This document shows, piece by piece, positions 1,794-44,380 of a DNA stretch of 47,369 nucleotides. The stretch's first letter is position 1. Every line of letters begins with the position of its first letter. The position numbers and the translations under genes are program-made. The notes under the pieces are model-generated. The model saw nothing but the letters and a program-made list of their open reading frames with translations. It was not told the DNA's origin and made no database searches. This stretch comes from Dysgonomonas sp. HGC4. GTDB taxonomy: Bacteria; Bacteroidota; Bacteroidia; Bacteroidales; Dysgonomonadaceae. Where the stretch lies: assembly GCF_001261715.1 (NCBI RefSeq), contig NZ_CVRU01000178.1, positions 1 to 47,369 of the forward strand, in the 5' to 3' direction.

Positions 1794-1839
1794 AGACCCA
1801 TATTCATAATATTGCAATAAAAAAATAAGGTCTATACGA

Positions 1840-1950
1840 AGAGACCTTTGCCTCTAATCTTAAGAAAGACAAAGTTTTTATTTGTTGGTTTCCAATAATT
1901 ATTTATAACTTTGTTTTAGACTAAGCTCCAATGGCAAAGGTCTCTTTTTT
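1840..1950 (+). terminator. long stem-loop ending in a T-tract, terminator or small RNA
   Basis: A perfect 13-bp stem (1840-1852 with 1933-1945) encloses about 80 bases that themselves fold into inner stems, and the 3' arm runs straight into T6. This has the form of an intrinsic terminator on a roughly 110-base structured RNA. No promoter directly upstream of 1840 is convincing, so read-through from tig is the simplest source. Confidence 0.5.
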
Positions 1951-1964
1951 GTTCGCTGCACAAC

Positions 1965-1998
1965 AAGGTCTAAGACCTGTTTATAGCTTCAACAGGTT
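1965..1998 (+). repeat. intergenic hairpin repeat copy upstream of clpP
   Basis: AAGGTCTAAGACCT (1965-1978) is a near-perfect palindrome followed by a T-rich tail containing TTTATAGCTTC. It matches the family of short hairpins found between genes throughout this window, core AAGGT-N5-ACCTT with a tail like TTTATTGCTTT. Confidence 0.7.
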
Positions 1999-2113
1999 AT
2001 TAAGTTATAATTCAAATAACATACAAAATAGTTACTGTAACTTACAACATTAAAAGTTAGGCATAAAATTTGCAGTCTTCTAAGTGAATTAATAATTAAA
2101 GATATAAACAACT

Positions 2114-2779
2114 ATGAATGATTTTAGAAAATACGCAACCAAACATATTGGTTTGAACGGATTGGCTCTCGATCAATACATGGATATAACCAGCAGCTAT
2201 ATTTCACCAACCATCATTGAAGAACGTCAACTTAATGTTGCACAAATGGACGTGTTCTCTCGATTAATGATGGATCGTATCATTTTCCTTGGTACTGGTA
2301 TTGACGATTATACTGCCAATGTTATTCAGGCACAATTACTTTATTTAGATTCTGCCGATTCGGGTAAAGATATTTCTATCTATATCAATTCACCGGGAGG
2401 ATCAGTATATGCCGGATATGGAATATATGACACCATGCAATTTATCAGCAGCGATGTATCTACAATCTGTACAGGCATGGCAGCTTCTATGGCAGCAGTA
2501 CTATTGGTTGCAGGACAAAAAGGCAAACGTTTTGGCTTGAAGCACTCACGTACCATGATACACCAACCTTTAGGTGGTGCACAAGGACAAGCTTCTGATA
2601 TTGAGATCACTGCTCGTGAGATTGCTAAAGTTAAACAAGAATTATATGCTATTATAGCAGATCATTCTGGACAAACTATCGAAAAAGTTGCTCAGGATTC
2701 GGATCGTGACTATTGGATGAATTCTACTGAAGCTAAAGACTACGGTATGATTGACGAAATATTAGTTCGAACAAAATAA
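2114..2779 (+). CDS. clpP: ATP-dependent Clp protease proteolytic subunit
   Basis: ClpP is the barrel-shaped serine protease that degrades substrates unfolded and fed in by ClpX, encoded next. The catalytic triad is complete and spaced as in E. coli: Ser125 (GMAAS, 121-125), His150 (TMIHQP) and Asp199 (DRDYW). The oxyanion-hole glycines are present in SPGGSV (93-98). The 221 residues include an N-terminal extension of about 25 residues, of which some is probably removed as propeptide. The ATG at 2114 lies after an A-rich stretch and about 160 bases beyond the structured tig-clpP gap. Expression may therefore depend on read-through from tig or on its own weak promoter. Confidence 0.96.
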
Positions 2780-2809
2780 TGCATACATATCATTGTGAAT
2801 GACTTAATA

Positions 2810-2840
2810 ATTGGCTGCTTATAATTTATAGGCAGTCAAT
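2810..2840 (+). terminator. candidate weak terminator hairpin after clpP
   Basis: ATTGGCTGC (2810-2818) pairs with GCAGTCAAT (2832-2840) with one G-T wobble and a 13-base AT-rich loop. Only a short, interrupted T-stretch follows, so termination would be partial. Confidence 0.35.
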
Positions 2841-2888
2841 TATTCGTTTGTAGACATAGGCAATAGATAATAAATACATTTCAAAAAC

Positions 2889-2901
2889 AGGTCTGTGACC
2901 T
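2889..2901. repeat. intergenic hairpin repeat copy in the clpX leader
   Basis: AGGTCTGTGACCT is a core palindrome of the dispersed intergenic family, ending 12 bases before the clpX ATG. The T-rich tail is not obvious here. Its closeness to the start codon means a folded RNA hairpin could touch the ribosome-binding region. Confidence 0.6.
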
Positions 2902-2913
2902 CAAATAAAAAAT

Positions 2914-4158
2914 ATGGCTAAAAAAGGAACAAACGATTCTTGTAGTTTCTGTGGACGACCTGATAGCGAGGTTAATTTATTAATCTCAGGGATATCGGCA
3001 CATATATGCGACAAATGCATCGATCAGGCATATCTTATAGTAAAAGATTCTTTAAAATCGGACAAAGGTTTTGGAGATTCACTTGACAGAAAGACGCTGC
3101 CAAATCCAAAACAAATAAAAGAATTCTTGGATCAATACATTATTGGACAAGATGATGCTAAGCGTTACCTGTCGGTTTCGGTATACAATCACTACAAAAG
3201 ATTGTTGCAGGAAGTAGGCGAAGATGATATTGAGATCGAAAAATCTAATATTATCATGGTAGGACCAACCGGAACGGGTAAAACAATGCTGGCACGTACC
3301 ATCGCAAAATTATTACACGTACCATTCGCAATTGTTGATGCAACTGTGTTAACAGAAGCGGGATACGTGGGTGAAGATATCGAAAGTATTTTGACTCGTC
3401 TTTTACAAGCTGCTGACTATGATGTGGCTGCTGCTGAGCGTGGTATTGTATTTATTGATGAAATAGATAAAATTGCCCGTAAAGGAGACAACCCTTCTAT
3501 CACTCGCGATGTAAGCGGCGAAGGTGTACAACAAGGTTTATTAAAATTACTGGAAGGTTCTATCGTGAATGTACCACCTCAGGGAGGCCGTAAACACCCT
3601 GACCAAAAAATGATTGCCGTAAACACCAAAAATATACTTTTTGTTTGCGGAGGTGCTTTTGATGGCATTGAGCGTAAGATAGCACAACGTCTGAATACTC
3701 GTGTAGTTGGATATTCTTCGGCTCTGAAAAATGCTGATATCGACAGAAAAGAACTGTTGAAATATATAACTCCTCAGGATTTAAAATCTTTTGGATTAAT
3801 CCCCGAGATTATAGGTCGTCTGCCTATTCTTACTTACCTGAATGCATTAGATCATTCTGCTTTGAGAAGAATTTTAACAGAGCCTAAAAACTCAATCATC
3901 AAGCAATATCTGAAATTATTTACAATGGATGGTGTTGAACTAACCTTCGATGAGGATGTTTATGAATATATAGTAGATAAAGCCATTGAATACAAATTGG
4001 GAGCCAGAGGGCTTCGTTCGATAGTAGAAACAGTGATGATGGATGCCATGTTTACCATCCCTTCAAGCGAAGAAAAGAGCCTGCATATTACAAAAGACTA
4101 CGCAGTGCAACAGTTGGAAAGCTCGAATCTGGACAGGCTGAAAAATTCTTATGAATAA
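2914..4158 (+). CDS. clpX: ATP-dependent Clp protease ATP-binding subunit ClpX
   Basis: ClpX is the AAA+ unfoldase that recognises tagged proteins, including SsrA-tagged ones made with SmpB (encoded at 9427), and threads them into ClpP. The N-terminal zinc-binding domain has Cys10, Cys13, Cys32 and Cys35. Walker A is GPTGTGKT (117-124), the substrate-gripping pore loop GYVG is at 150-153, and Walker B contains IDEIDK with Asp182-Glu183. The loop that docks on ClpP, IGF in E. coli, appears to read VGY in RVVGYSS, a hydrophobic-aromatic variant. The 414-residue length is normal. The gene follows clpP by 134 bases, probably co-transcribed with it. Confidence 0.96.
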
Positions 4159-4193
4159 TTCTCATTTTTCTATTAAAAAAAAATCTTTTTCTA

Positions 4194-4223
4194 TTGTATT
4201 TTTCACTTAAGAAGCTATCTTCG
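4194..4223 (+). promoter_or_regulatory. candidate recQ promoter
   Basis: TTG at 4194-4196 and TATCTTCG at 4216-4223 are 19 bases apart, close to the Bacteroidota consensus TTTG-N19-21-TAnnTTTG with one mismatch in the -7 box. It sits in the clpX-recQ gap, about 80 bases ahead of the recQ ATG. Confidence 0.45.
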
Positions 4224-4304
4224 TAAGATATAATTACATTTTCAAAAATTACGAGTGTAGGTTATGTCTATTTTTGAGATTCCATTTATGCGATTTAATT
4301 AACT

Positions 4305-6491
4305 ATGTCAAAACGAGAAGATTTATTAATCGAAAATCTAAAAAAGCATTTTGGATTTGATAAGTTCAAGGGTAACCAGGAGGCTATCATTCAGAATGTT
4401 TTAGCGGAAAAAGATACTTTTGTTTTGATGCCAACAGGAGGTGGCAAATCCCTTTGCTATCAGCTTCCTGCAATTTTGATGGAGGGTACAGCTATTATTA
4501 TATCCCCATTGATTGCATTGATGAAAAATCAGGTTGATGCCATGCGCAACTTCAGCGAAGAAGATGGGATAGCTCACTTTTTGAATTCATCCTTAAATAA
4601 AGCTTCCATTGAGTTGGTAAAAGCTGATGTAGTATCGGGCAAAACAAAATTATTATATGTAGCTCCCGAATCTTTAACAAAAGAGGAAAACATCGACTTT
4701 TTGCGACATATCAAGGTATCTTTTTATGCGATAGATGAAGCGCATTGTATATCGGAATGGGGACACGATTTCAGACCCGAGTACAGACGTATCAAACCCA
4801 TAATAATGGAAATCGGGCAACGTCCGCTTGTAGCATTAACAGCTACTGCGACGCCTAAAGTACAGCACGACATCCAGAAGAGTCTGGGTATGTTGGATGC
4901 AAAAATCTACAAATCATCCTTTAATCGGGAAAACCTTTATTACGAAGTTCGACCCAAAACAGAGAAAGTAGATCGGGACATTATCCGCTATATTAAATCT
5001 CAGGCTGGAAAATCAGGGATCGTATATTGTTTAAGTAGAAAAAAAGTAGAAGAATTCGCAGAAATTCTTCGTGCCAATAATATAAATGCACTTGCTTATC
5101 ATGCAGGGTTAGATGCTTCTACTCGCGGAGAGAATCAGGACTCGTTCTTAATGGAAAAAGTGGACGTAATTGTTGCCACTATTGCTTTTGGGATGGGAAT
5201 TGACAAACCCGATGTAAGGTATGTTATCCATTATGATATGCCCAAAAGTCTCGAAGGATATTACCAAGAGACCGGACGTGCAGGACGTGATGGAGGCGAA
5301 GGGCAATGTGTTGCATTCTATTCTTATAAAGATTTGCAAAAACTCGAAAAGTTTATGCAAGGAAAACCTGTAGCCGAACAGGAAATAGGCAAGCAACTTC
5401 TTCTTGAAACTGCAGCTTATGCTGAAACAGCGATGTGTCGTAGAATAGTTCTATTACATTATTTCGGAGAAAAATATAATCAACATAATTGTGGTAATTG
5501 TGACAATTGTATAAACCCTAAAAAACAAGTGGAAGCTCAAGATTTATTATTAACAGCGATAGAAGCTGTGTTAGCATTAAAAGAAAAATTTAAGACCGAG
5601 TATGTGATTAATTTCCTTAGAGGAAAAGAAACATCTGAGATTGAGACCTACGGACATCAAGAGTTGGAAGCATTTGGATCTGGAGAAGAGACAAACGACG
5701 AAACATGGAATGCCGTTATAAAACAGGGGTTAATTGCGGGTTATCTGGACAAGGATATTGAAAACTACGGTTTACTGAAAGTTACAAAAAAAGGAAAAGA
5801 CTTTTTAAAGAAGCCAGTTTCATTCAAAATTGCTCAAGAAGAGGATTTTGATGATGAAAGTGACGATGAGGTAGTTATCAAAGGCGGTGGCGGAAGTTCG
5901 GCTGTCGATCCTGTACTATTCTCGATAATGAAAGACCTTCGTAAGAAGATGTCTAAAAAGCTGAATGTTCCTCCTTATGTAATATTCCAAGATCCTTCGT
6001 TAGAATCGATGGCAACCATCTATCCTACAAGTATCGACGAATTACAAAACATACCGGGTGTAGGAGCAGGTAAAGCAAAAAGATACGGTGCTGAGTTTGT
6101 TGAAATCATCAAAAAGCACGTAGAAGAAAACGAAATTGAACGCCCTGAAGATTTACGTGTTAGAACAGTAGCAAATAAATCGAAATTAAAGGTAGCGATA
6201 GTTCAAAGTATAGACCGTAAGGTGGCTCTTGATGATCTTGCTGAATCGAAAGGCATAGAATTTCCTGAGCTATTGGCTGAACTTGAAGCTATTGTTTATT
6301 CGGGTACTAAAATAAATATCGATTATTTCTTGAATGAAGTGATAGACGAAGACCATATGGCTGACATCTTTGACTATTTTCAGGAAGCCGAGTCGGATGA
6401 TCTCGAAGATGCAATTAATGAACTAGGCATGTTTACCGAAGAAGAAATTCGTCTGGTAAGAATCAAGTTCATTTCCGATATGGCAAATTAA
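4305..6491 (+). CDS. recQ: ATP-dependent DNA helicase RecQ
   Basis: RecQ unwinds DNA 3' to 5' during recombination repair and replication restart. Helicase motif I is TGGGKS (44-49), motif II is DEAH (144-147), followed by the RecQ-specific aromatic-rich loop beginning CISEWGHDF. Motif VI is visible in QETGRAGRDG. A zinc-binding set of cysteines follows (CRRIV, then CGNCDNC), then a winged-helix RQC region. An HRDC domain lies about 540-615, containing the helix-hairpin-helix-like IPGVGAGKAKRYG. At 728 residues it is longer than E. coli RecQ (about 610): roughly 110 acidic, helical residues extend past the HRDC domain, as in one class of Bacteroidota RecQ. The function of this extension is not known to me. 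Confidence 0.93.
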   Translation: MSKREDLLIENLKKHFGFDKFKGNQEAIIQNVLAEKDTFVLMPTGGGKSLCYQLPAILMEGTAIIISPLIALMKNQVDAMRNFSEEDGIAHFLNSSLNKASIELVKADVVSGKTKLLYVAPESLTKEENIDFLRHIKVSFYAIDEAHCISEWGHDFRPEYRRIKPIIMEIGQRPLVALTATATPKVQHDIQKSLGMLDAKIYKSSFNRENLYYEVRPKTEKVDRDIIRYIKSQAGKSGIVYCLSRKKVEEFAEILRANNINALAYHAGLDASTRGENQDSFLMEKVDVIVATIAFGMGIDKPDVRYVIHYDMPKSLEGYYQETGRAGRDGGEGQCVAFYSYKDLQKLEKFMQGKPVAEQEIGKQLLLETAAYAETAMCRRIVLLHYFGEKYNQHNCGNCDNCINPKKQVEAQDLLLTAIEAVLALKEKFKTEYVINFLRGKETSEIETYGHQELEAFGSGEETNDETWNAVIKQGLIAGYLDKDIENYGLLKVTKKGKDFLKKPVSFKIAQEEDFDDESDDEVVIKGGGGSSAVDPVLFSIMKDLRKKMSKKLNVPPYVIFQDPSLESMATIYPTSIDELQNIPGVGAGKAKRYGAEFVEIIKKHVEENEIERPEDLRVRTVANKSKLKVAIVQSIDRKVALDDLAESKGIEFPELLAELEAIVYSGTKINIDYFLNEVIDEDHMADIFDYFQEAESDDLEDAINELGMFTEEEIRLVRIKFISDMAN

Positions 6492-6517
6492 GGTCATTGA
6501 CCTTCTTATTATTACTG
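6490..6517 (+). repeat. intergenic hairpin repeat copy overlapping the recQ stop
   Basis: AAGGTCATTGACCTT (6490-6504) is a perfect palindrome around one base. It begins within the recQ stop codon and is followed by the T-rich tail CTTATTATTACTG. Confidence 0.7.
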
Positions 6518-6618
6518 TTTGATTCATAATTAAGTTCATCTAGGTATTAAATAATATACAACTATTTGTTGTTATATCTTGTAGCGAAAATCTACGATTT
6601 AATTCCCTAAGTCATAAA

Positions 6619-6632
6619 AGGTTTGTGAACCT
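6619..6632 (+). repeat. intergenic hairpin repeat copy in the coaD leader
   Basis: AGGTTTGTGAACCT pairs AGGTT with AACCT around TGTG. It is a core variant of the dispersed family with an inner stem change matched on both arms, 36 bases before the coaD ATG. Confidence 0.6.
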
Positions 6633-6667
6633 AATAATGATACAAACAGTAAGTACAGCAGTAAAAA

Positions 6668-7129: not shown

Positions 7130-7165
7130 GACAATTGAATTGGAATAAAATAAAACTATCCAAAG

Positions 7166-7196: not shown

Positions 7197-7204
7197 GCAT
7201 AAAT

Positions 7205-7265: not shown

Positions 7266-7309
7266 TATATATCACTTAATACTTTTATTTACTTAAAAGA
7301 GAACACAGA

Positions 7310-15700: not shown

Positions 15701-16399
15701 TTAGATCAACTAATCTTTTCGAAAGCTGAGTACATCAAGGCTGTATATGCTATTCATGAAGCTTATGTAGATAATGAATGTATCTATATCAACAACATTT
15801 GCTTTCCAATGTTACGTCAGCAAAAGAAAAACGACAAAGGGGTATATCTTTCTCTTTGTGATTTTGTTCTACCAAAGAATAGTGGCAAAAAAGATTATGT
15901 AGCAGGATTTACAGCAACAGCAGGTGTAGGTTCTAACGAATTGCTAAGCCAATACGAACATCAGGGAGATGAGTACAATGTATTGCTTTTGAAATCATTA
16001 CTTGACCGTTTGGCTGAAGCCACAACCGAATACCTTCATGCTAAAATTAGAAAAGAATTCTGGGGATTTGCTCCAGATGAAGATATTACAATAGATCAGA
16101 TGTTTACTCTTAAATATCAAGGCATTCGCCCAGCAGTAGGCTACCCTTCTATACCCGATCAGTCTATCAACTTCCTATTGAATACCGATCTTTTACAATC
16201 AACAGAAATAGGTGTTGAACTAACTGAAAATGGTGTTATGCTACCTAATGCTTCGGTGAGTGGGCTAATCTTTGCTCATCCACAATCTAGATATTTCAGT
16301 ATCGGACAGATTTCAGAAGAGCAAGCTGATAATTATATCGAACGCCGAGGAGAAAAAGCTGAGCTAACCAGAAAATTTCTAGCTGCCAATATGATGTAA
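12707..16399 (+). CDS. metH: cobalamin-dependent methionine synthase
   Basis: MetH transfers a methyl group from 5-methyltetrahydrofolate to homocysteine through methylcobalamin, making methionine. All four modules are present in 1230 residues. The homocysteine domain has zinc ligands Cys243 (LNCSFG) and Cys306-Cys307 (GGCCGTTP). The pterin-binding domain starts near [15 protein letters not shown]. The cobalamin domain has the lower axial ligand His756 in DVHDIGKN (754-761). The C-terminal reactivation domain binds S-adenosylmethionine and has [13 protein letters not shown]. Ligand numbering is shifted by three to four residues from E. coli. I see no cobalamin or SAM riboswitch in the 15-base gap before it, so any such control would be further upstream. 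Confidence 0.97.
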
Positions 16400-16423
16400 G
16401 ATCATAAACCTTTTTATTGCCTT
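16398..16423 (+). repeat. degenerate intergenic hairpin repeat copy after metH
   Basis: AAGATCATAAACCTT followed by TTTATTGCCTTG agrees with the core and especially the tail of the dispersed family, with stem mismatches. It overlaps the metH stop codon. A small hairpin TGCCTT/AAGGCA (16418-16432) follows. Confidence 0.5.
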
Positions 16424-16473
16424 GGTAAGGCAGAACTGCATTTGCTAGGTACAAGCAAAAAGGTACAATAATA

Positions 16474-16516
16474 AATAAAGAAGCCGATGAAAATTATTTT
16501 CATCGGCTTCTTTATT
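16474..16516. terminator. bidirectional terminator between metH and yqeY
   Basis: A perfect 20-bp stem (16474-16493 with 16497-16516) around a 3-base loop has A-rich and T-rich ends on both sides. It separates the convergent metH and dcw transcripts and can terminate both. Confidence 0.85.
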
Positions 16517-16996: not shown

Positions 16997-17012
16997 ATAT
17001 GGTTGTATTTTT

Positions 17013-17027
17013 AAGGTCTCAGACCTT
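17013..17027. repeat. intergenic hairpin repeat copy between ftsZ and yqeY
   Basis: AAGGTCTCAGACCTT is a perfect palindrome around one base. It overlaps the ftsZ stop codon by two bases and fills half of the 29-base gap to yqeY. Confidence 0.75.
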
Positions 17028-18318
17028 AGTTAAATAAATCTGTTGATTTTTTAGTTTCGGGCTTATAGTCATTCGGATTGAAATCTTCACCTCTTTTAAA
17101 TACAGGAGTGTTTTCCAATGCTTCAACTATCTTATCATCATCCAGTTCTTCGGTCGATAATATAATAGGACGTGGAGTAAAGAATGATTTAACATCCATA
17201 GTTTTAACTCCGTCTTTCCCGTAATGCTGCTCAATCATAGTATTGATACGGCGTTTTTCTTCCTCTTCTTTGATGAAACGTTCCTCTTCCAAGCGTTGCT
17301 CTTCTTCGGTCATTTCTCTCAGATGATCTCCAATACCTGGTATGCTCGACATTCCAAAACCTGTTGCCAGCAAAGTAATTTTAACCTTACCACCCAAGCT
17401 CTCTTCTGTTGCTGTACCCCATATAACTTCAATCTCAGGACCAAAGCGTTTCATGAATTCAGATACAGATTCCATTTCTTCAACAATAAGTGGAGTTTCT
17501 GCTCCTGCATAAATGTTGAATAGTATCTTTTTTGCTTTAAAGACATCATTGTTATTCAACAATGGCGAATGTAATGCGTTTCTGATAGCTTCCTCTACTC
17601 TGTTTTCTCCTTCGCCCATGCCACTACTCATGATAGCTACACCACCATCTTTAAGGATGGTTTTAACATCGGCAAAGTCGAGATTTATATGCCCGTGTAC
17701 GGTTATAATCTCGGCAATACCTTTTGCTGCAATAGCTAAAGTATCATCAGCTTTGGCAAATGCATTCGGAATCGTAAGATCCGAATATATATCTATCAAA
17801 CGCTCATTGTTGATTACCAATAAGGCATCTACATTCTGAGCAATATCTTCAACACCTCTAAGGGCTTGGATTATCTTTTTACGACCTTCAAACACAAAAG
17901 GTATTGTAACAATACCAACGGTCAGAATATTCATATCTTTTGCAATACGGGCTACAACAGGAGCTGCACCGGTTCCGGTTCCCCCTCCCATACCTGCCGT
18001 AATAAATACCATTTTGGTACCATCAGCCAGAAGTTCCTGTATGTCTTGGCGACTTTCTTCGGCAGCAGATTTTGCTACTTCGGGGCGGTTACCTGCTCCT
18101 AGACCTTCGGTTGTACGTCTACCAAGTTGTACACGGGTTTCAACGGGAGATTCATGCAATGCCTGATTGTCTGTATTACAGAGAGCAAACGATACGTCAT
18201 GTATTCCCTCATTATACATATGATTCACGGCATTTCCACCACCACCACCTACACCAATAACTTTGATGATAGTCTGGGTTTTTCGCGGAAACTGAAATTC
18301 TAATATCTCGTCATTCAT
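17026..18318 (-). CDS. ftsZ: cell division GTPase FtsZ
   Basis: FtsZ polymerises into the Z-ring that scaffolds septum formation. The tubulin signature GGGTGTG is at residues 111-117. The T7 synergy loop NLDFADV (212-218) supplies the catalytic aspartates to the neighbouring subunit. After the globular core (to about 320) comes a charged region rich in Glu/Lys (EEEQRLEEERFIKEEEEK) and a linker. A stretch like the conserved C-terminal peptide that binds FtsA, ENTPVFKR (402-409), lies 21 residues before the end rather than at the very end, followed by a Bacteroidota-type tail. The 430 residues are long for FtsZ for that reason. It lies 120 bases downstream of ftsA with one hairpin repeat in the gap, the standard order. 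Confidence 0.97.
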   Translation of the reverse strand: MNDEILEFQFPRKTQTIIKVIGVGGGGGNAVNHMYNEGIHDVSFALCNTDNQALHESPVETRVQLGRRTTEGLGAGNRPEVAKSAAEESRQDIQELLADGTKMVFITAGMGGGTGTGAAPVVARIAKDMNILTVGIVTIPFVFEGRKKIIQALRGVEDIAQNVDALLVINNERLIDIYSDLTIPNAFAKADDTLAIAAKGIAEIITVHGHINLDFADVKTILKDGGVAIMSSGMGEGENRVEEAIRNALHSPLLNNNDVFKAKKILFNIYAGAETPLIVEEMESVSEFMKRFGPEIEVIWGTATEESLGGKVKITLLATGFGMSSIPGIGDHLREMTEEEQRLEEERFIKEEEEKRRINTMIEQHYGKDGVKTMDVKSFFTPRPIILSTEELDDDKIVEALENTPVFKRGEDFNPNDYKPETKKSTDLFN

Positions 18319-18349
18319 ATAGCGTATCTTCTTTATTTATCACGTTTGT

Positions 18350-18375
18350 AAGGTTGCAGACCTTATATTGCTTTG
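18350..18375 (+). repeat. intergenic hairpin repeat copy with tail in the ftsA-ftsZ gap
   Basis: AAGGTTGCAGACCTT followed by ATATTGCTTTG is one of the best matches to core plus tail. The tail points along the plus strand, opposite to the direction of the surrounding genes. Confidence 0.75.
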
Positions 18376-18438
18376 GTAGGTCTAATATCCCTAATTAGCT
18401 ATTAATTCGAAATTGGAGGACTAAAAGCTGTAGATTAA

Positions 18439-19851: not shown

Positions 19852-19866
19852 ATCTTCTTTCCTATT

Positions 19867-19880
19867 AAGGTCTAAGACCC
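19867..19880. repeat. intergenic hairpin repeat copy upstream of ftsA
   Basis: AAGGTCTAAGACCC matches the core of the dispersed family apart from its last base, followed by ATTATATCATTT on the plus strand. It lies 16 bases before the ftsA start codon on the coding strand. Confidence 0.6.
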
Positions 19881-19990
19881 ATTATATCATTTCCTCTAGC
19901 AAAACAATTCTAGTTTGTTTACTTAGATAGATCTCTAAACTCTTTTATTTACTTATATACATACTAAACGTTCTTTTCACAAAAATATTT

Positions 19991-20017
19991 AAGCTCGTAA
20001 AGCTTTTTATGGCTTTG
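19991..20017 (+). repeat. intergenic hairpin repeat copy with a compensated stem
   Basis: AAGCT (19991-19995) pairs with AGCTT (20001-20005) around CGTAA, followed by TTTATGGCTTTG. Compared with the family core AAGGT-N5-ACCTT, a G-to-C change on the left arm is matched by C-to-G on the right. The tail is conserved. It lies in the 244-base ftsQ-ftsA gap. Confidence 0.6.
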
Positions 20018-20095
20018 ATAAACATAATAACAACAAGCTATTATAATTATCGGCTCTGCCTTTAATATTTTTTGTATCTGTAGTATTTCTTACAT

Positions 20096-20864: not shown

Positions 20865-20898
20865 TAAGTAACATTAAAATATTTATTGCTACATTTTT
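20865..20898 (-). repeat. recurrent leader element, ftsQ copy
   Basis: On the coding strand it reads GCAATAAATATTTTAATG, then TTACTTA. Nearly the same sequence precedes ftsW (24669-24700) and glsB (34341-34366). Here the hairpin repeat lies between the element and the ATG, whereas in the other two the element abuts the start codon. Confidence 0.45.
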
Positions 20899-20943
20899 GT
20901 TTGTAACCAAACTATGTTTTTATTCACTCCTATGTCCTGTAAC

Positions 20944-20958
20944 AAGGTTAGTAGCCTT
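20944..20958. repeat. intergenic hairpin repeat copy at the murC 3' end
   Basis: AAGGTTAGTAGCCTT pairs AAGGT with GCCTT through one T-G wobble. It overlaps the murC stop codon and is followed on the plus strand by ATTTTA. Confidence 0.6.
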
Positions 20959-22330
20959 ATTTTAAACGAGCTTCTAATATATCTTTTATTTCAGGTAACA
21001 GACGATCAATATCTCCGGCTCCAATTGTCAAGAGTACTTCAATATCGTCCTTTTTCTCTAGTATATCTAATAGTTCTTCTTTTTTACACAACGTCTTTTT
21101 GCAGGTTACTTTATCAAAAATAACTATTGAAGTTATACCTTCAATAGGTTTTTCGCGAGCTGGATATATATCTAATAGAATCAATTCATCTAAGAGTGAT
21201 AAACTTCTGGCAAACTCATCTACAAAATCTCGGGTTCGTGTATATAAGTGCGGTTGAAAAACACCCAGCACTTTTTTATCGGGATATAATTCTTTGACAG
21301 AAGATATACTTGCCGACAATTCATCGGGATGATGCGCATAATCATCTATCATTACCAGATTATCAGATTTGAGAAGAAAATCAAAACGACGTTTTGCTCC
21401 TTGAAAGGTAGCCATTGCACGGCGTAATTCTTCATCCGTCGTTCCATTTAACCAAGCCAGCGCCATAGAACCTATTCCGTTTTCGATATTAATTCGAACA
21501 GGAACTCCCAATTCTATATTTTTAATAGAGCCTTTAGGTGTCACAAAATCGAAACGAATAGTACCTCCACCTACTTTTATATTCTCTGCATGAAAGTCTC
21601 CTCTATCAATAGAATATGTATATAGTCTGACTCCTTCAACCAGTTTAGGTGACAATTTTATATTGTGCTTCATCACTAAAGCCCCTCCGGGTTGGATTAG
21701 GCTTGTGAATTTTTCAAAGCTTTTCAAATACTCGGCTTCTGTTCCATATATATCCAGGTGATCGGGATCAACCGAAGTTATCAAAGCCATATAAGGATGC
21801 AGCCAATGGAAAGAACGATCGTACTCGTCAGCTTCAACCACTGTAAATTCACTTGTATCGGACAACATGAGATTACTTCCGTAATTCTTAAGTATTCCTC
21901 CCAGAAAAGCATTACAATCGAGATGAGAGCCTTTCAGAATATGAGCAAGCATACTCGAAGTAGTTGTCTTGCCATGAGTACCTGCACAACATAAAGCTTT
22001 ACTGCTTTTAGTTATCAAGCCTAAAACCTGAGCTCGTTTTTTAAGATCGAAATTATTTTGTTGGAAATATTGTAACTCAGCACTATCACTGGGTAAAGCT
22101 GGGGTATAAACAACTAAAGTTGAATCTTTATCTATAAAATCAGTTGGAATATTATTTGTATTATCATCGTAATGAATACTTGCTCCTTCTTGCACAAGAG
22201 TCTGAGTCAACAAAGTTTCGGCTCTATCATATCCTGCCACTTTTTTACCTTTCGATAAAAAATAACGAGCCAAGTTACTCATACCAATACCACCTATTCC
22301 TAAAAAATATACTGATTTTATATTTTCCAT
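20957..22330 (-). CDS. murC: UDP-N-acetylmuramate--L-alanine ligase
   Basis: MurC adds L-alanine to UDP-MurNAc, the first amino acid of the peptidoglycan stem peptide, using ATP in the cytoplasm. The UDP-binding Rossmann-like start is FLGIGGIGMSNLARY (from residue 9), and the Mur-ligase ATP loop is GTHGKTTT (117-124). EADEYDRSFHWLHP and the ADP-contact region DDYAHHPDE are also present. The 457-residue length is standard. It follows murG by 5 bases, a tightly coupled pair. A gap of 126 bases to ftsQ downstream holds a hairpin repeat on the stop codon and the leader element of ftsQ. Confidence 0.96.
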   Translation of the reverse strand: MENIKSVYFLGIGGIGMSNLARYFLSKGKKVAGYDRAETLLTQTLVQEGASIHYDDNTNNIPTDFIDKDSTLVVYTPALPSDSAELQYFQQNNFDLKKRAQVLGLITKSSKALCCAGTHGKTTTSSMLAHILKGSHLDCNAFLGGILKNYGSNLMLSDTSEFTVVEADEYDRSFHWLHPYMALITSVDPDHLDIYGTEAEYLKSFEKFTSLIQPGGALVMKHNIKLSPKLVEGVRLYTYSIDRGDFHAENIKVGGGTIRFDFVTPKGSIKNIELGVPVRINIENGIGSMALAWLNGTTDEELRRAMATFQGAKRRFDFLLKSDNLVMIDDYAHHPDELSASISSVKELYPDKKVLGVFQPHLYTRTRDFVDEFARSLSLLDELILLDIYPAREKPIEGITSIVIFDKVTCKKTLCKKEELLDILEKKDDIEVLLTIGAGDIDRLLPEIKDILEARLK

Positions 22331-24668: not shown

Positions 24669-24700
24669 TAAGTAGCATTAAATATTTATTGCTCTATTTT
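24669..24700 (-). repeat. recurrent leader element, ftsW copy
   Basis: On the coding strand the sequence reads AGAGCAATAAATATTTAATG, then CTACTTA, ending one base before the ftsW ATG. It matches the elements ahead of ftsQ and glsB at most positions. Confidence 0.45.
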
Positions 24701-24731
24701 ATAATTATACCTATCATCGTTTCCATGTATC

Positions 24732-24757
24732 AAAGCAATAAAAAGGCATGAGACCTA
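24732..24757 (-). repeat. intergenic hairpin repeat copy with tail, at the murD 3' end
   Basis: On the minus strand AGGTCTCATGCCT is followed by TTTTATTGCTTTG, a full core-plus-tail match in the same direction as the genes. It begins directly after the murD stop codon and so resembles a weak terminator. Confidence 0.65.
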
Positions 24758-33415: not shown

Positions 33416-34276
33416 GTGCCCGGAAAAGTAATGGATGAAGTAAAAGATAATGCTCCGAACTTAATTGATTTGGACAAGGTGTTTATAGATAAGGCTCCCA
33501 AGCTCTATGCCAAGACACCTACTTTTGCTCTAAACTACATAAAAAAGAAAATACACCTTGAAGAGCTAAACGAGATATTGACTATCTATGCAGATAAATA
33601 TGGGGTCGATTTTATGGATTCCGTTGTTCAGTATTTCGATTTACATTTAAATATCAAAGGCTTAGAAAATATACCGAATGACAATCGATATATTTTTGTT
33701 TCCAATCATCCTTTAGGTGGGCTCGATGGTATTTGCTTATCGTCTATCATCGGAAATAAATTCGATAAAAAGATAAAATATCTGGTTAACGATGTTTTGT
33801 ATTTTATAAAAAATCTGAGACCGATATTTATTCCGATCAATAAATACGGAGCGCAAGCCAAAGAAAAGGCTGCATTATTGAACGAAGCCTATGCTTCGGA
33901 CGATCAGATCATTACATTTCCGGCAGGATTATGTTCCCGCAAAATAAACGGGAGAATATATGATCTTAAATGGCAGAAGTCTTTTATACAGAAAGCCATA
34001 CAAACCAAGAGGGATGTTGTTCCTGTGTATTTTGAAGCGAAAAACTCAAATTTCTTTTATAGATTTGCAAATATTAGAAAGAAACTAGGGGTGAAATTTA
34101 ACATCGAAACATTTTTTCTACCCGATGAAATGTTCAAAAATAAGCATCAGACATTTTCTGTTACTTTTGGAGATCCCATACCGTGGGAATCTTTTGATGA
34201 AACAAAAACTCATCAACAATGGGCAGAAAAAGTAAAAGATATAACATACAGTCTAGCCTCAAGTAATAAGCAATAA
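33416..34276 (+). CDS. glsA: lyso-glycine lipid O-acyltransferase (PlsC-like)
   Basis: This 286-residue protein belongs to the PlsC/OlsA acyltransferase group. The catalytic block reads NHPLGGLDG (97-105), with His98 and Asp104 five residues apart rather than the four of classical PlsC. The phosphate/acyl-binding block is FPAGLCSR (168-175). The next gene is an OlsB-like N-acyltransferase. In Bacteroides thetaiotaomicron the equivalent neighbours GlsB and GlsA make N-acyl glycine and then its diacylated glycine lipid, so the same role is inferred here. The start used is GTG at 33416, with GGTAGGA upstream; an in-frame ATG at 33431 is an alternative. Substrate assignment rests on the gene pair, not on motifs alone. 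Confidence 0.8.
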   Translation: MPGKVMDEVKDNAPNLIDLDKVFIDKAPKLYAKTPTFALNYIKKKIHLEELNEILTIYADKYGVDFMDSVVQYFDLHLNIKGLENIPNDNRYIFVSNHPLGGLDGICLSSIIGNKFDKKIKYLVNDVLYFIKNLRPIFIPINKYGAQAKEKAALLNEAYASDDQIITFPAGLCSRKINGRIYDLKWQKSFIQKAIQTKRDVVPVYFEAKNSNFFYRFANIRKKLGVKFNIETFFLPDEMFKNKHQTFSVTFGDPIPWESFDETKTHQQWAEKVKDITYSLASSNKQ

Positions 34277-34287
34277 GGTCATACACC
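34275..34287 (+). repeat. degenerate intergenic hairpin repeat copy after glsA
   Basis: AAGGTCATACACC keeps the left arm and part of the right arm of the dispersed family and begins at the glsA stop codon. The tail is lost, so this may be a decayed copy. Confidence 0.35.
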
Positions 34288-34340
34288 ACGCTCCTACTCA
34301 GGTTAGAAGAATAACGAAAAATCGTTACAAATATAAAATA

Positions 34341-34366
34341 CAGAAATAAATATTTGACGTTACTTA
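34341..34366 (+). repeat. recurrent leader element, glsB copy
   Basis: CAGAAATAAATATTTGACG followed by TTACTTA lies four bases before the glsB ATG. It matches the elements preceding ftsW and ftsQ in the same sense relative to the gene. Confidence 0.45.
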
Positions 34367-34370
34367 AAAT

Positions 34371-36777: not shown

Positions 36778-36784
36778 ATAATTA

Positions 36785-40147: not shown

Positions 40148-40259
40148 ACTCAAATTATGATAAGTGAAGTCTTCCTCCTGTTAATATATTAGCTAGCATA
40201 ACACCTTCTGCTATGAGCCTTATACATTTCATTAAGCAGACTGAGTTCTTTACAGTTTT

Positions 40260-40290
40260 CAATATTATAAGTTTCTTCTAAAACTGGCAA
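40260..40290 (-). promoter_or_regulatory. candidate promoter of the beta-helix lipoprotein gene
   Basis: On the minus strand TTG (40290-40288) is followed after 20 bases by TAATATTG (40267-40260), one mismatch from TAnnTTTG. The leader would be about 105 bases and includes AGGAGG, but that lies about 28 bases before the ATG, too far to be its ribosome site. Confidence 0.4.
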
Positions 40291-40343
40291 CTACATTCTA
40301 CATAAGCAGTAATCTACTCGACCAATTATGCTATTTAACGGAC

Positions 40344-40382
40344 AAAAAAATAGCCTTGCTAGAATTTATCTAACAAGGCTAT
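40344..40382 (-). terminator. intrinsic terminator of the S46 peptidase gene
   Basis: ATAGCCTTG (40350-40358) and CAAGGCTAT (40374-40382) form a 9-bp stem. On the minus strand it is followed by seven T (A-run at 40344-40350 on the plus strand). Confidence 0.8.
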
Positions 40383-40394
40383 CTATATTGTTGA

Positions 40395-40407
40395 AGGTAT
40401 AGTACCT
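40395..40407 (+). repeat. intergenic hairpin repeat copy after the S46 peptidase gene
   Basis: AGGTATAGTACCT is a palindrome around one base, followed by CTCTTTATCTTATT on the plus strand, close to the family tail. It lies 10 bases past the peptidase stop and just before its terminator. Confidence 0.55.
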
Positions 40408-40416
40408 CTCTTTATC

Positions 40417-42540
40417 TTATTTCTGAATAGTAAGCTCCTCAATCAAACGAGGGCAATTCATAATTTTGTCGATAGTATAAAGTACATAACGAATGTCTAC
40501 ACTGATCGTACGTTGTAACTCTGGCTCAAATACTACGTCGCCACTCAAAGCTTCCCAGTTACCATCGAATGCAAGACCGATCAATTCAGCCTTACCGTTA
40601 AATACGGGACTACCTGAGTTACCTCCTGTAATGTCATTATTAGAAAGGAAACCAATAGACATAGAACCTTTTTCATTAGCATATTCGCCCCATTTCTCTG
40701 CACGAAGATTATCTAAGATATAACTTTGTACAGCAAACTCAGGATCGTTAGGATTTTCTTTCTCTAAAATACCTTTACTTGTAGAGTAGTAATCGTATTC
40801 AATTGCATCAGCAGGGCTATAACCGCCTACCGAACCATAGCTAAGACGCTGAGTAAAGTTAGCATCTGGAGAGAATGCTTTATTGGGTTCCATTTCCATT
40901 AAAGCAGCCATGTACTTACGAGCATTTCTATCGATGATAGGATATACGGGCGAAAGATCTTCAACAACCTTCAAACGACCTTCGGCAACCGATCTTGCCA
41001 AAATCAGAGCAGGGTCTTTATCCAATTCTTTTACACCTCCAGCACTTATTGCCGAAATAAGGTTGTCTAGGTTGGTAAATTTACTGTTTTTGAAAACCCA
41101 ATCAGCATATTTATCATAGTCACCTTTAAACTTCTTATCAATAGTTTGATATACACTAGGCAGATATTCAGCAGGAACTCTTTCTCTGTATAGTTTAAGT
41201 AAAGCAGGCATTACTTGTTTATCCAACTCAGGAACATAATCTTTATATGTATCCGTTAGTTTTGCTCTCAGATAAGCCATTAGCTCTTCTTTGTCCGAAA
41301 TATTAGCAATGTTTACACTATTTGCCAAACGTGCTATTTCTATTCCATTGTTGAATGTTTCACCAAAATAGGTTCCTATTTCCACTGGCTTCATTGTGTT
41401 TTTATACACAACTTCAAGACTTGGTAATACATCACCATATTTTTCAGTTGCAGCAGGACTGCTAACTATCCAATCTGCAAGACGAGATTCTAAAGCTTGT
41501 TTAGCTTCTACTACATTCAACTTTTTCAGAGCAGCATTCATTCCCATAGCATTTTTCCAATAATTGGAACTTCTGCTGAATTTCACCGAATACTTGATAC
41601 GTACGGCATCATCTGCATTCATTGCTTTTCTCCAAATATCTTGTTTCACGGTACGAACTTCAATACGTGGAATATTTTCAGATTCCATCATTTGAGTAAT
41701 TCCCCAAGAAGATAAATAACGCTCAGTACTTCCCGGATAACCGATTGTCATTGCATAATCTTTATCCTTGTATCCTTTTATTGAAACAGGCACAGAATAT
41801 TTAGGTTTGTAAGGCACATTGTCTACACTGTAATGCGATGCCTGATTGTCTTTATTAGCATATACTCTAAATACAGAAAAGTCTCCTGTATGACGAGGCC
41901 ATTGCCAGTTATCGGCATCTCCTCCGAATTTACCGATTGAAGATGGTGGAGCAAAAACCATTCTTACATCTTTGAATACTTCGTAAACAACCAAATAGAA
42001 TTTGTTACCAGTATAAAAAGGCACAATACGTGCTGTTAAGAACTCATTGTCTTTGTATTGAGCCAGAATATCGGTTGATATTGAATCTATGATATGATTT
42101 CTTTCTTCTTCAGATGTAGCATCTGTTACACCCACTGTCACCTGATCGGTAACATCTTCTGTCTTTTGAAGAAAAGAAACAGTCAACCCTTCAGTATACA
42201 ACTCTTCGGGTTTCGATTGGCTTACAAACCCATCTTTCAGATAGTCATGCTCTACCGAACTATGTTTTTGAATAGCATCGTATCCACAATGGTGATTGGT
42301 AAAAATCAGACCTTCTTGCGATACAGCTACACCTGTACAACCTCCTCCGAATATAACAACTGCATCTTTTAGAGACGCATTATTTTCGCTATAAATACTA
42401 TCAATAGGGAATGTAAATCCCAGCTCTTTCATACGAGCTGCACTTTGTCTGTTTAGCTCTTTTAACAGCCACATACCCTCATCTGCCTGAACAGAAGCTA
42501 GCGAGAGTAAAACGCCTAGCAATAAAAAGATTTTCTTCAT
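40417..42540 (-). CDS. S46 family dipeptidyl-peptidase, DPP7-type
   Basis: S46 enzymes remove dipeptides from the N-terminus of peptides in the periplasm and support peptide-based nutrition. A signal peptide (1-19, ending VQA) is followed by the chymotrypsin-like fold with His84 in TNHHCG. The nucleophile is Ser644 in GGNSGSPVF. The specificity position soon after reads FDGNWEALSGD: glycine here is the DPP7 pattern (hydrophobic P1), whereas DPP11 enzymes, which prefer Asp/Glu, have arginine (FDRVWE). The 707 residues match the family. The gene has its own terminator and is preceded by a hairpin repeat copy. Specificity is inferred from one subsite and should be regarded as probable. Confidence 0.92.
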   Translation of the reverse strand: MKKIFLLLGVLLSLASVQADEGMWLLKELNRQSAARMKELGFTFPIDSIYSENNASLKDAVVIFGGGCTGVAVSQEGLIFTNHHCGYDAIQKHSSVEHDYLKDGFVSQSKPEELYTEGLTVSFLQKTEDVTDQVTVGVTDATSEEERNHIIDSISTDILAQYKDNEFLTARIVPFYTGNKFYLVVYEVFKDVRMVFAPPSSIGKFGGDADNWQWPRHTGDFSVFRVYANKDNQASHYSVDNVPYKPKYSVPVSIKGYKDKDYAMTIGYPGSTERYLSSWGITQMMESENIPRIEVRTVKQDIWRKAMNADDAVRIKYSVKFSRSSNYWKNAMGMNAALKKLNVVEAKQALESRLADWIVSSPAATEKYGDVLPSLEVVYKNTMKPVEIGTYFGETFNNGIEIARLANSVNIANISDKEELMAYLRAKLTDTYKDYVPELDKQVMPALLKLYRERVPAEYLPSVYQTIDKKFKGDYDKYADWVFKNSKFTNLDNLISAISAGGVKELDKDPALILARSVAEGRLKVVEDLSPVYPIIDRNARKYMAALMEMEPNKAFSPDANFTQRLSYGSVGGYSPADAIEYDYYSTSKGILEKENPNDPEFAVQSYILDNLRAEKWGEYANEKGSMSIGFLSNNDITGGNSGSPVFNGKAELIGLAFDGNWEALSGDVVFEPELQRTISVDIRYVLYTIDKIMNCPRLIEELTIQK

Positions 42541-42556
42541 TTCAATTATTTAAATT

Positions 42557-42570
42557 AAGGTCTAAGACCT
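42557..42570. repeat. intergenic hairpin repeat copy upstream of the S46 peptidase gene
   Basis: AAGGTCTAAGACCT is the same 14-base core as the copy upstream of clpP (1965-1978), followed on the plus strand by ATTGGATTATTT. It lies 17 bases from the peptidase ATG. Confidence 0.7.
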
Positions 42571-42595
42571 ATTGGATTATTTCGAGATACACACT

Positions 42596-42618
42596 AAAAA
42601 AGAATAGTGCTTATTCTT
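42596..42618 (-). terminator. candidate terminator of the flippase gene
   Basis: On the minus strand AAGAATA pairs with TATTCTT around a 5-base loop and runs into a T-stretch. It starts right after the flippase stop codon. The stem is AT-rich, so strength is uncertain. Confidence 0.5.
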
Positions 42619-44112
42619 TTATTTTCGTTTTACTATTTTACCAATAACGGGAATTTCCGATAAGGGTAAATCTCTCTTGATAAGAACAAAAAAGAAAATA
42701 GCGAACAACACTGTATTAAACGCCAAGCGTAATGCTTCTGTATCGAAACGTATATAACAACTTACTCCATAAAGCACAATAGCCAGACCAAAATACAAAC
42801 CTATCGATTTGAAATCGTAAGGCAGTGGTCGGTATTTTCGTTCAAAGTAGTAAGAAAGTAACATCATTATCAAATTACAAATCAATGTAGCCCATGCACT
42901 AGCTATATATCCATAGATAGGTACAAAAACAATATTCAGTACAATAGTTATTACACAACCTGCGATTGAGAATACTGCTCCGAAATAAGTTTTATCGACC
43001 ATCTTGTACCAAAAAGACAAGTTGAAGTAAACCCCAAACAGAATATACCCCATCATTACGATAGAAACCACATTCAACCCCTCATAGAAATCCTTGCCTA
43101 TAAAGTGTTTTATTATATCCATATAAAACATTACCCCAAGAAATATAATCAAGGAGAAAATGATAAAATACTTCATAGCTTCAGTGTAAGCCTTATCGTG
43201 ATTAGCATCTTTGTTTTTAGCAAAAATAAAGGGCTCATAGGCGAAGCGGAAAGCTTGCGTGAACATCATCATAATAATAGCTACCCGCGAACATGCCGAA
43301 TAGATACCCAGTTGACGAAAAGCTTCTACCTTATCATCAAATAAGAATGGATAAATTATTTTATCAACTGTTTGATTCAGCATGCCTGCAATTCCCAATA
43401 TCAATAAAGGGAAGCAATATTTAAGCATACGCTTCAACAGATTGGTATCGATCACGTATTTAAAGCCTCTCAGTTCGGGAATCAAGAGAATAAATGTAAT
43501 TGCCGAACCTATAAGATTGGCTACAAATACATAACCTTCTTTGTATGACGGATTATAAAACCAAGCGATCAATGATGGATTAACAGCATGAATCTTAGGG
43601 CAAATAATCAGGAAAAAGATAGTAAATGCAATGGTTATAAAAATACTCGACAACCGAAGGGTGGCAAATCGAATAGGACGTTTCTTGTATCGTAAATAAG
43701 CAAAGGGAATGGTCATTATAGTATCAATCCCTACCACAATAGCCATTATAGCAATATAATCAGGGTGATGCGAATAATCTAAAAAGTCGGCTATAGGATT
43801 CAAAAAACTAAAACAAAAAACCACAAAAAGAATAGAGGTAAGGGCAATAGACAGAAGAGTTGTAGAATATACCTTCATTGGCTCATCGTCTCCCTTATTC
43901 ATAAAACGAAAAAAGCCGGTCTCCATGCCATATGTAAGAATCACCGCCAGTAAAGCAGTATAGGCATAGACGTTGGTCATTACACCAAATTCGCCGGTGG
44001 TTAACACCCTTGTATAGATTGGCACAAGACACCAACCTATAAATTTCCCCAGGATACTACTCAAACCATAAATGGCGGTATCCTTGGCCAGACTTTTCAT
44101 TCCTCCTGCCAT
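42619..44112 (-). CDS. oligosaccharide flippase (Wzx/MOP superfamily)
   Basis: A 497-residue polytopic protein with roughly fourteen membrane helices and the polysaccharide-transport signature at the start: LAKDTAIYGLSSILGKFIGWCLVPIYTR (about 8-35), followed by GEFGVMTNVYAY. Such proteins move lipid-linked sugars across the inner membrane for surface polysaccharide or O-antigen assembly. No glycosyltransferases or polymerase are adjacent, so this is not part of a visible polysaccharide locus; a lone general envelope flippase is as likely. The leader is very short if the TACCTTTG element at 44132-44139 is its promoter. An in-frame ATG four codons downstream is directly preceded by GGAGGA and is an alternative start. 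Confidence 0.88.
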   Translation of the reverse strand: MAGGMKSLAKDTAIYGLSSILGKFIGWCLVPIYTRVLTTGEFGVMTNVYAYTALLAVILTYGMETGFFRFMNKGDDEPMKVYSTTLLSIALTSILFVVFCFSFLNPIADFLDYSHHPDYIAIMAIVVGIDTIMTIPFAYLRYKKRPIRFATLRLSSIFITIAFTIFFLIICPKIHAVNPSLIAWFYNPSYKEGYVFVANLIGSAITFILLIPELRGFKYVIDTNLLKRMLKYCFPLLILGIAGMLNQTVDKIIYPFLFDDKVEAFRQLGIYSACSRVAIIMMMFTQAFRFAYEPFIFAKNKDANHDKAYTEAMKYFIIFSLIIFLGVMFYMDIIKHFIGKDFYEGLNVVSIVMMGYILFGVYFNLSFWYKMVDKTYFGAVFSIAGCVITIVLNIVFVPIYGYIASAWATLICNLIMMLLSYYFERKYRPLPYDFKSIGLYFGLAIVLYGVSCYIRFDTEALRLAFNTVLFAIFFFVLIKRDLPLSEIPVIGKIVKRK

Positions 44113-44131
44113 CTTTCTGATTTTTCGGATG

Positions 44132-44139
44132 CAAAGGTA
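44132..44139 (-). promoter_or_regulatory. candidate -7 element of the flippase promoter
   Basis: The minus strand reads TACCTTTG, an exact TAnnTTTG match 19 bases before the ATG. No clear -33 TTTG is present at the expected spacing. Confidence 0.5.
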
Positions 44140-44272
44140 ATATAAATCGTATGTATATTATAGTTAATATGAATGAAATACACAACATTTTAGACCTATC
44201 GTTACCCTAACAACTAATGTGTAGACAATTATAAAAATCAAGCTATTAACATCAATTAATGATTTATTCAGC

Positions 44273-44280
44273 TAACTTTG
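44273..44280 (+). promoter_or_regulatory. candidate -7 element of the acyl-CoA synthetase promoter
   Basis: TAACTTTG is an exact TAnnTTTG match, giving a leader of about 118 bases that contains a hairpin repeat. The -33 region has no good TTTG. The 293-base gap to the flippase gene is otherwise AT-rich and featureless. Confidence 0.5.
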
Positions 44281-44367
44281 TGTTATAAAAACTTCAATAA
44301 TACATTTGAGTCGTATATCCGTATCGTTTAATAAGCTTTACTGATGTCTCTTATAGGAATAATAACG

Positions 44368-44380
44368 AGGTCTGAGACCT
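44368..44380. repeat. intergenic hairpin repeat copy in the acyl-CoA synthetase leader
   Basis: AGGTCTGAGACCT is a perfect palindrome around one base, ending 25 bases before the ATG. It is followed by TACC rather than the usual T-rich tail. Confidence 0.65.

Follow-up and report, generated by a model that had tools for sequence, protein, structure and literature searches.

Short intergenic hairpins recur throughout a 47,369-nucleotide stretch of Dysgonomonas sp. HGC4 (contig NZ_CVRU01000178.1; this whole stretch is termed the window below). Each hairpin marks the front of a longer asymmetric element, about 89 bp in length, of which the first-pass annotation had noticed the front end only. Judged from related genomes that show empty sites, the element is or was mobile, and its copies lie on stop codons in one orientation at approximately five to nine times the random rate. 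It is best filed as an undescribed family resembling miniature inverted-repeat transposable elements (MITEs) and repetitive extragenic palindromes (REPs), with a marked stop-codon bias. The explanation favored here, held with good confidence, is that these are mostly old copies of a non-autonomous, TA-inserting mobile element whose sense insertions are biased to stop codons largely by the insertion process. Recent insertions and empty sites make it testable how REP-like elements come to supply stop codons, and the intergenic hairpins of Dysgonomonas should not be taken for terminators without RNA evidence.

An asymmetric element with TA at its borders

The element proper (AGGTC...TTACT, 89 bp in the consensus) is delimited by its empty sites, because their junctions show TA at both ends. 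It opens at its 5' end with the hairpin AGGTCTNAGACCT, continues through a T-tract and TATTGCTTTGG, and closes with an AT-rich 3' portion that has TTACT at its end; there is TA on either side. The consensus of D. alginatilytica copies reads TTA-AGGTCtCAGACCTTTTTATTgCTTTGGcAAGtAtAAcAaC.A.AG.TaGTTATaatt.tAAAatATagCATTAAATAtTT....TTACT-TAaa. The one-sided tail of the first-pass annotation, TTTATTGCTTT, is real and belongs to this longer unit; in an alignment of tailed copies, conservation extends well beyond it. Terminal inverted repeats are absent (the ends, TAAGGTCTC and, complemented, TAAGTAA, have just TAAG in common), and the consensus, which begins TA-AGGTC, has neither a GTAG nor a CGTC tag.

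The 5' end of the consensus has the form of a terminator (a GC-containing stem followed by a T-tract) on the forward strand only, with a predicted fold of -5.5 kcal/mol for its first 30 nucleotides, and a terminator scan of the window flags copies that include the one at 6490. Within the first hairpin, one pair (6-18) undergoes compensatory change: GC 52, UA 3, CG 2, GU 1, UG 1 and unpaired 3 (n = 62). A second helix, TATAAC/GTTATA, is paired in 74.9% of cells with little compensation. When both helices were tested jointly the shuffle control was mixed, with the covariation score matched by 4 of 500 shuffles and the number of both-side pair changes by 286 of 500. A pairwise scan for a longer base-paired RNA found nothing outstanding beyond the first hairpin.

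The palindrome family described by the first-pass annotation is well borne out by counts. AAGGTN5ACCTT, with at most one mismatch, occurs 13 times in the window versus a mean of 1.82 and a largest value of 5 in 100 dinucleotide shuffles, and AAGGTCNNNGACCTT occurs 94 times in the genome from which the window comes (G000), versus one occurrence of the reversed pattern. Five relatives of the same genus gave 120, 289, 0 (a 62% complete genome), 39 and 141 palindromes, with 0, 0, 2, 0 and 0 for the reversed pattern in the same order; D. alginatilytica (G002) is the richest of the six genus genomes searched. The FtsA encoded in the window is 99% identical to FtsA of D. alginatilytica DSM 100214 (the ftsA locus of which lies in G061, with the same matches as G002). 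Among 31 other members of the family, G019 had 10 palindromes, G023 had 4 and the rest 0 to 2; among 24 genomes of other families, G052, from another Bacteroidales family, had 71 and the rest 0 to 2.

An element profile of 96 columns was built from 29 D. alginatilytica copies and used at a working cut-off of 15 bits; reversed sequence gave no match of at least 15 bits and a maximum of 10.3 bits. Matches of at least 20 bits numbered 52 over 503 kb of the window's own genome, 62 over 374 kb of G002, 17 over 80 kb of G005 and 5 over 80 kb of G004; these four samples came from contigs or places already known to contain palindromes, so their densities lean high. There were 11 such matches over 120 kb of G001. 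Evenly spaced stretches of G001 yielded 58 copies in 780 kb, or 74 per Mb. Copies are present in five Dysgonomonas genomes, and this dispersed repeat of the Bacteroidales would number hundreds per Dysgonomonas genome.

Evidence for mobility comes from 18 comparisons in which one species has a copy and the other a short site. Eight of these (rows 1, 9, 11, 24, 42, 48, 70 and 128) can be read to the base: TA stands at both junctions and in the empty site in five (rows 1, 9, 11, 42 and 128), and the remaining three differ by one substitution. Relative to the empty site, rows 1, 11 and 128 gain 91 bp net, and the remaining five rows gain 75-95 bp. These junctions fit equally well a 2-bp TA duplication and the insertion, 3' of a TA, of a 91-bp unit that itself ends in TA. 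For copies with both flanks matched, 16 of 26 from G002 are present in G000 (8 absent, 2 unclear), and 15 of 17 from G000 are present in G002 (2 absent). The first-pass suggestion of a REP- or MITE-like repeat is upheld by these empty sites, by dispersal in both orientations and by the occurrence of the element in five genomes; it is small and non-coding with many dispersed copies, as MITEs are. Past or present transposition would be carried out by an enzyme acting in trans. A search for an autonomous parent, in which lone 5' and 3' ends no more than 6 kb apart in the sampled DNA were paired, gave three pairs: two are explained by nested inserts of 63 bp, and the third is a weak pair separated by 1.5 kb. 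There were 96 lone 5' ends to 9 lone 3' ends, although the 5' model is the more informative and the cut-offs were unequal. At L068:2729-2853 and L067:15061-15184, element copies are split by a palindromic repeat of the GTAGGGGTGAACC type, their halves 63 bp apart by the model.

Placement at stop codons

Placement was assessed for 192 copies of at least 15 bits from five genomes, with genes called by a longest-ORF rule (open reading frames, ORFs, of at least 90 amino acids). Only two midpoints fall inside an ORF, both of 16-bit copies, in DNA that is 84-89% coding; in new stretches of G001 the figure is 1 of 73, and in G019 two of eight examined loci lie inside crude ORF calls. The earlier statement that copies never sit inside a gene therefore holds apart from rare, weak exceptions, and this scarcity would presumably be due to selection. 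By element orientation, there are 68 sense and 57 antisense in tandem gaps, 37 in divergent gaps, 15 in convergent gaps and 13 at stretch edges.

Of the 185 copies with an assessable 5' end, 37 begin exactly on the last base of a stop codon read in the same sense, versus 4.1 expected if copies were scattered over all non-coding TA sites in either orientation (p = 2e-24). The stop is TAA in 36 and TGA in one. Offsets of +1 to +50 from a sense stop account for only 21 copies in total, versus the 37 exactly at the stop. The antisense counterpart shows no enrichment and no clear depletion, with 2 of 122 copies with an assessable 3' end versus 2.7 expected. Three of the 37 recur at a site already counted in another species, which leaves 34. 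In 39 later stretches of G001 the excess was replicated at a lower level (7 of 69 at the stop versus 1.3 expected, P = 3e-4); eight more copies lie at offsets 0 to +5, and none of 40 is at the antisense stop offset. In G019 and in G052, three of eight examined loci are on a stop codon.

Landing in the stop codon is apparently harmless to the gene. When 17 of the 37 at-stop genes were scanned, the products of eight matched to or near the last residue and the profile end, as native C-termini do (rubrerythrin, xanthine permease, a TonB-dependent receptor, aspartate carbamoyltransferase, MetH, HtpG, GldM and the ATP synthase A subunit); the other nine were uninformative, three of them having no match at all. 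Excision in silico, possible for 21 of the 37, leaves a stop codon in place in 14 (13 TAA, and one TAG with an approximate 3' end) and TAT or TAC in seven, with the next stop 2 to 12 codons later. In three of these seven the flank is TTACTTA-TAA or similar, and an end set two bases on would restore TAA. The empty counterparts of two at-stop copies, L066:1081 (compared with L110) and L106:8110 (compared with L101), bear the identical TAA; that of L106:17688 differs. The process may be pictured as insertion at a TA dinucleotide that leaves TA on either side; where that TA is part of a stop codon and the insertion is in the sense orientation, the first A of the element would restore TAA and the protein would be unaltered.

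The hairpin appears to serve mobility and not to be maintained at resident sites as a signal for the host, a reading that is supported, not proven, because the stem is conserved between copies but not between orthologous copies. Between copies, conservation is 0.92 in the stem and 0.68 in the rest (122 of 192 scorable), the former inflated since the profile detects conserved parts best. Between orthologous copies of G000 and G002 (14 pairs from 67 copies tried), the stem is identical at 132 of 154 positions (0.86) and the rest at 749 of 860 (0.87), with 31 of 42 in the loop, 152 of 182 in the tail and 3960 of 4166 in the flanks. Retention of the terminal hairpin would reflect a need of the copies for it in order to move, not service to the host. 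Fully paired stems are also fewer at stops (offsets -2 to +6; 16 of 33) than among copies classed as 'other' (40 of 55, p = 0.019), which disfavors a hairpin kept for the gene; near-start antisense copies have 22 of 34 (p = 0.11, not significant). The insertion step itself would account for most of the stop-codon bias, because the bias is no rarer among copies nearest the consensus than among diverged ones and the stems of resident at-stop copies are not preserved. Near-start antisense copies may instead reflect retention, since that class becomes commoner with divergence (4 of 31 nearest-consensus copies versus 55 of 161, p = 0.019).

A tentative alternative is that selection against harm alone accounts for the pattern. 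Sense insertions would then behave as terminators or as extensions of the reading frame, and would persist only if the gene is cut off cleanly by the new TAA and the hairpin is covered by the ribosome that terminates there. An in-frame TA gives an immediate TAA, the other two frames run into the element, and the seven TAT or TAC sites are Tyr codons shortly before a stop; repression of stop-proximal terminators has been measured in E. coli, according to passages of PMC4824070. However, at-stop copies are also common in convergent gaps, which have no downstream gene to protect: of the 15 copies in this (+E-) class, 7 have an upstream distance of -3 and 11 a distance of 3 or less, and other TA sites in convergent gaps should be equally harmless.

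It is doubtful that the element is a host-selected 3'-end signal (a terminator, an mRNA stabilizer or a ribosome-stalling hairpin), with useful copies kept at stops and others lost or neutral. The first-pass annotation had offered an RNA-processing or 3'-end signal as one possibility, and the terminator form of stem and T-tract agrees with it, as does the concentration of sense copies at -1 to +5 of stops. Passages of PMC12306157 report effects on translation of E. coli REPs within 15 nucleotides of stops, and in the part of PMC3049150 that treats them the pneumococcal SPRITE repeats are proposed to be co-opted terminators. Against such a role stand the lesser integrity of at-stop stems, which are no better than those of near-start antisense copies, orthologous stems conserved no more than the rest of the element, and the near-complete repression of an E. 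coli terminator placed a few bp from a stop (in passages of PMC4824070).

Candidate movers and the replication fork

A single-strand mechanism of the HUH/Y1 kind is the leading guess for the mover, because there are no terminal repeats, one end carries a hairpin and orientation is biased against the replication fork. An IS200/IS605-like derivative would be expected to lack terminal repeats, to have hairpins at its ends and to show a strand bias relative to replication; the element lacks terminal repeats and has a clear hairpin at one end only, and the fork bias was seen in one genome. In G001, 58 of 90 copies are oriented against the fork (p = 0.008), or 60 of 90 (p = 0.002) with the limits moved, and this bias favors an insertion tied to replication and single strands. 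Origin and terminus were placed from the GC skew of the sampled stretches (minimum at about 1.55 Mb, maximum at about 3.6 Mb); dnaA lies at 0.47 Mb, away from the skew minimum. Coding DNA is neutral (0.50-0.53 with the fork), and the two replichores contribute unequally, one with 22 copies against the fork and 6 with it, the other with 36 and 26. No mobilizing enzyme was found. Transposases of the Y1 and DDE_3 types were considered as movers and set aside on account of their inconsistent presence across genomes; Y1 proteins are patchy, with at most one per Dysgonomonas genome, and the element matches adjoining them are poor (best 13.4 bits).

Several observations weigh against insertion-biased mobility. 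The native stop is not shown for every at-stop case, because the 3' end could not be set for 16 of the 37 copies and excision leaves TAT or TAC in 7 of the other 21. Divergence or the presence of other sequence makes ten of the 18 empty-site rows unreadable, and the contrast between copies and orthologs is sharpened by the inflated stem figure. The at-stop share by similarity to the consensus, nearest to farthest, is 9 of 31, 6 of 42, 9 of 59 and 13 of 60, a trend with age that is not significant (9 of 31 versus 28 of 161, p = 0.14), and closeness to a consensus made from G002 is a proxy for age only. The fork bias is modest and from G001 alone, and the exact at-stop copies there are opposite, with 7 of 9 oriented with the fork. 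As to enzymes, the Y1 family was not found in G000, G003 or G005, and DDE_3 (PF13358) has no match in five Dysgonomonas genomes or in G019 and two in G052. Finally, ERIC, RUP and Correia/NEMIS repeats have terminal inverted repeats (passages of PMC2229807) and the element does not.

Mobilization of the repeats as REPs by a RAYT (TnpA_REP) transposase, which the first-pass annotation had proposed to look for, is improbable. The copies are intergenic hairpin repeats and D. alginatilytica, the richest in palindromes, has a RayT gene, yet among the 21 genomes searched a homologue was found only in G002 and G019, as a fragment in G003 and as a weak match in G052. It is absent from four of the six Dysgonomonas genomes (G000, G001, G004 and G005), including that of the window, and a second Y1 type occurs in G001, G004 and G019. 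The hairpins alongside the RayT genes of G002 and G019, read by eye, are different ones, and the unit is untagged, 89 bp long and asymmetric. The G019 gene, at L115:1157-2250 with CGGGTTGCAAACCCG hairpins on either side, itself shows the usual REP/RAYT layout, though of a different type.

Ribosome-dependent nucleases of the RelE type cut mRNA between the second and third codon bases. It is a long shot, though one that would place insertion where such nucleases cut, that a translation-sensing mechanism inserts the element between the second and third bases of the stop codon (also of late UA-N codons) on the sense strand, perhaps via an RNA- or mRNA-coupled step, beside an ordinary TA mode. Least credible of all is a family of structured RNAs or protein-binding sites without mobility: compensatory changes at pair 6-18 speak for it, but the empty sites have precise TA junctions, Rfam gives no match in the window at gathering scores, the shuffle control over two helices is mixed, and hairpins at the ends of mobile elements also covary.

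Copies in the window and comparison with known repeats

The window holds eight copies of at least 15 bits (5' ends 1965, 7204, 16397, 18349, 19990, 24756 on the minus strand, 33327 and 34274) and nine more at 7.7-13.7 bits (Table 1 has the eight and seven of the nine); the lowest-scoring rest on hairpin and position, not on score, because reversed sequence reaches 10.3 bits. Other sites on the first-pass list are hairpin-like only. At 1827, seven pairs enclose a loop of 8 bases and such a tail is lacking, and 24732 falls in the tail of the minus-strand copy 24756-24669. The copy at 18349 has its hairpin end facing the ftsZ start and is common to D. alginatilytica. MetH, beside the copy at 16397, is near full length (NCBIfam), and the stop TAA (34274-34276) of the gene at 33416-34276 ends on the first base of the copy listed at 34274..34367.

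Table 1. Element copies in the window, with profile scores
Positions	Strand	Feature	Score and remarks
24669..24756	-	Near-complete copy that takes up the whole intergenic gap (both neighboring genes minus strand)	36.7 bits, model positions 4-94
18349..18437	+	Near-complete copy, ftsA-ftsZ gap (genes on minus strand; Pfam)	34.2 bits
7204..7296	+	Near-complete copy upstream of S41 peptidase gene	31.1 bits
34274..34367	+	Near-complete copy	29.9 bits, stop offset -1
16397..16462	+	5' two thirds of copy, on metH stop TAA 16397-16399	29.6 bits, offset -1
19990..20049	+	Diverged copy, 5' two thirds	23.2 bits
33327..33353	+	Hairpin and tail only	21.0 bits
1965..2044	+	Diverged copy, gap separating clpP from the trigger factor gene	16.4 bits
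44359..44382	-	Hairpin end only	13.7 bits, under the 15-bit cut-off
19866..19926	+	Probable decayed copy upstream of ftsA	11.7 bits, under cut-off
20865..20958	-	Probably a full-length copy, now decayed, where minus-strand gene 20957-22330 ends	11.3 bits, under cut-off
17011..17028		Hairpin-only copy over ftsZ stop codon (minus strand)	10.3 bits; 5'-half model 15.8
2885..2903	-	Hairpin only, upstream of clpX	9.5 bits; 5'-half model 12.7
6489..6511	+	Hairpin and short tail over recQ stop TAA 6489-6491	8.6 bits; 5'-half model 13.3
42556..42575	+	Hairpin only	8.3 bits; 5'-half model 12.1

Other structures were noted along the way. Between the trigger factor and clpP genes, window positions 1827-1950 hold an inverted repeat (GAGACCTTTGCC / GGCAAAGGTCTC, about 100 bases apart, then a T run) that is distinct from the dispersed element. 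In contrast to the element, the hairpin at 16474-16516, of 20 pairs and between convergent genes, is conventionally terminator-like. Another dispersed repeat, about 530 bp long and bounded by inverted ends (GAATCAGTAGTTGAAT ... ATTCAACTACTGATT), lies at L065:5533-6063 and has dozens of partial matches in the related genome G001. At L047:1960-2390 is a leader with a GA-dinucleotide run, possibly phase-variable, and a block of about 75 bp that recurs at 85-92% identity at many places in related genomes; a repeat of about 110 bp with CAGTGG and CCACTG arms (L063:19767-19881), found at many places in the window's genome, is seemingly related to the L047 leader.

A separate set is formed by the AAGGTC-loop-GACCTT repeats of G052 (L078-L092, even numbers; tail TTTAATGTTGCTTACGCATTAT; the 71 palindromes counted above). 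These AAGGTCGAAGACCTT repeats have the same stem as the element, a T-rich tail with TTGCTT and the stop-codon placement already given, and differ in loop and tail; across the eight loci the Dysgonomonas model gives them no more than 12.8 bits. Among described families, the GTAG/CGTC-tagged REPs are, according to passages of PMC3733652, 20-40 bp long, mostly intergenic and near gene 3' ends, with GTAG termini that often supply a TAG stop. The element is like them in being an intergenic hairpin repeat that supplies stop codons, and unlike them in its 89 bp, its lack of a tag, its asymmetry, its use of TAA via a TA site and the absence of a linked RAYT. Pneumococcal BOX encodes the stop codon of 36 genes with no strong evidence of truncation, and SPRITE is terminator-like and near gene ends; as they are described in part of PMC3049150, BOX is modular with terminal repeats and SPRITE an 18-bp duplex, which sets the element apart from both, and a phased stop-codon excess is not among the features those passages report. 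ERIC, RUP and Correia/NEMIS share small size, intergenic location and TA at the termini, and the CIR repeats of Caulobacter and Brucella share TA termini and the lack of terminal inverted repeats, but CIR folds differently and has an exposed GANTC motif (all from passages of PMC2229807).

No published description of the repeat was found among the matches listed in open-licence papers, nor one of intergenic or palindromic repeats in Dysgonomonas. The overlap of repeats with stop codons is not new, and the GTAG REPs are its precedent. What is new, as far as searches of the open-licence literature show, is the family itself, its lack of terminal repeats, and a measured, oriented and phased excess at stop codons that is accompanied by empty sites.

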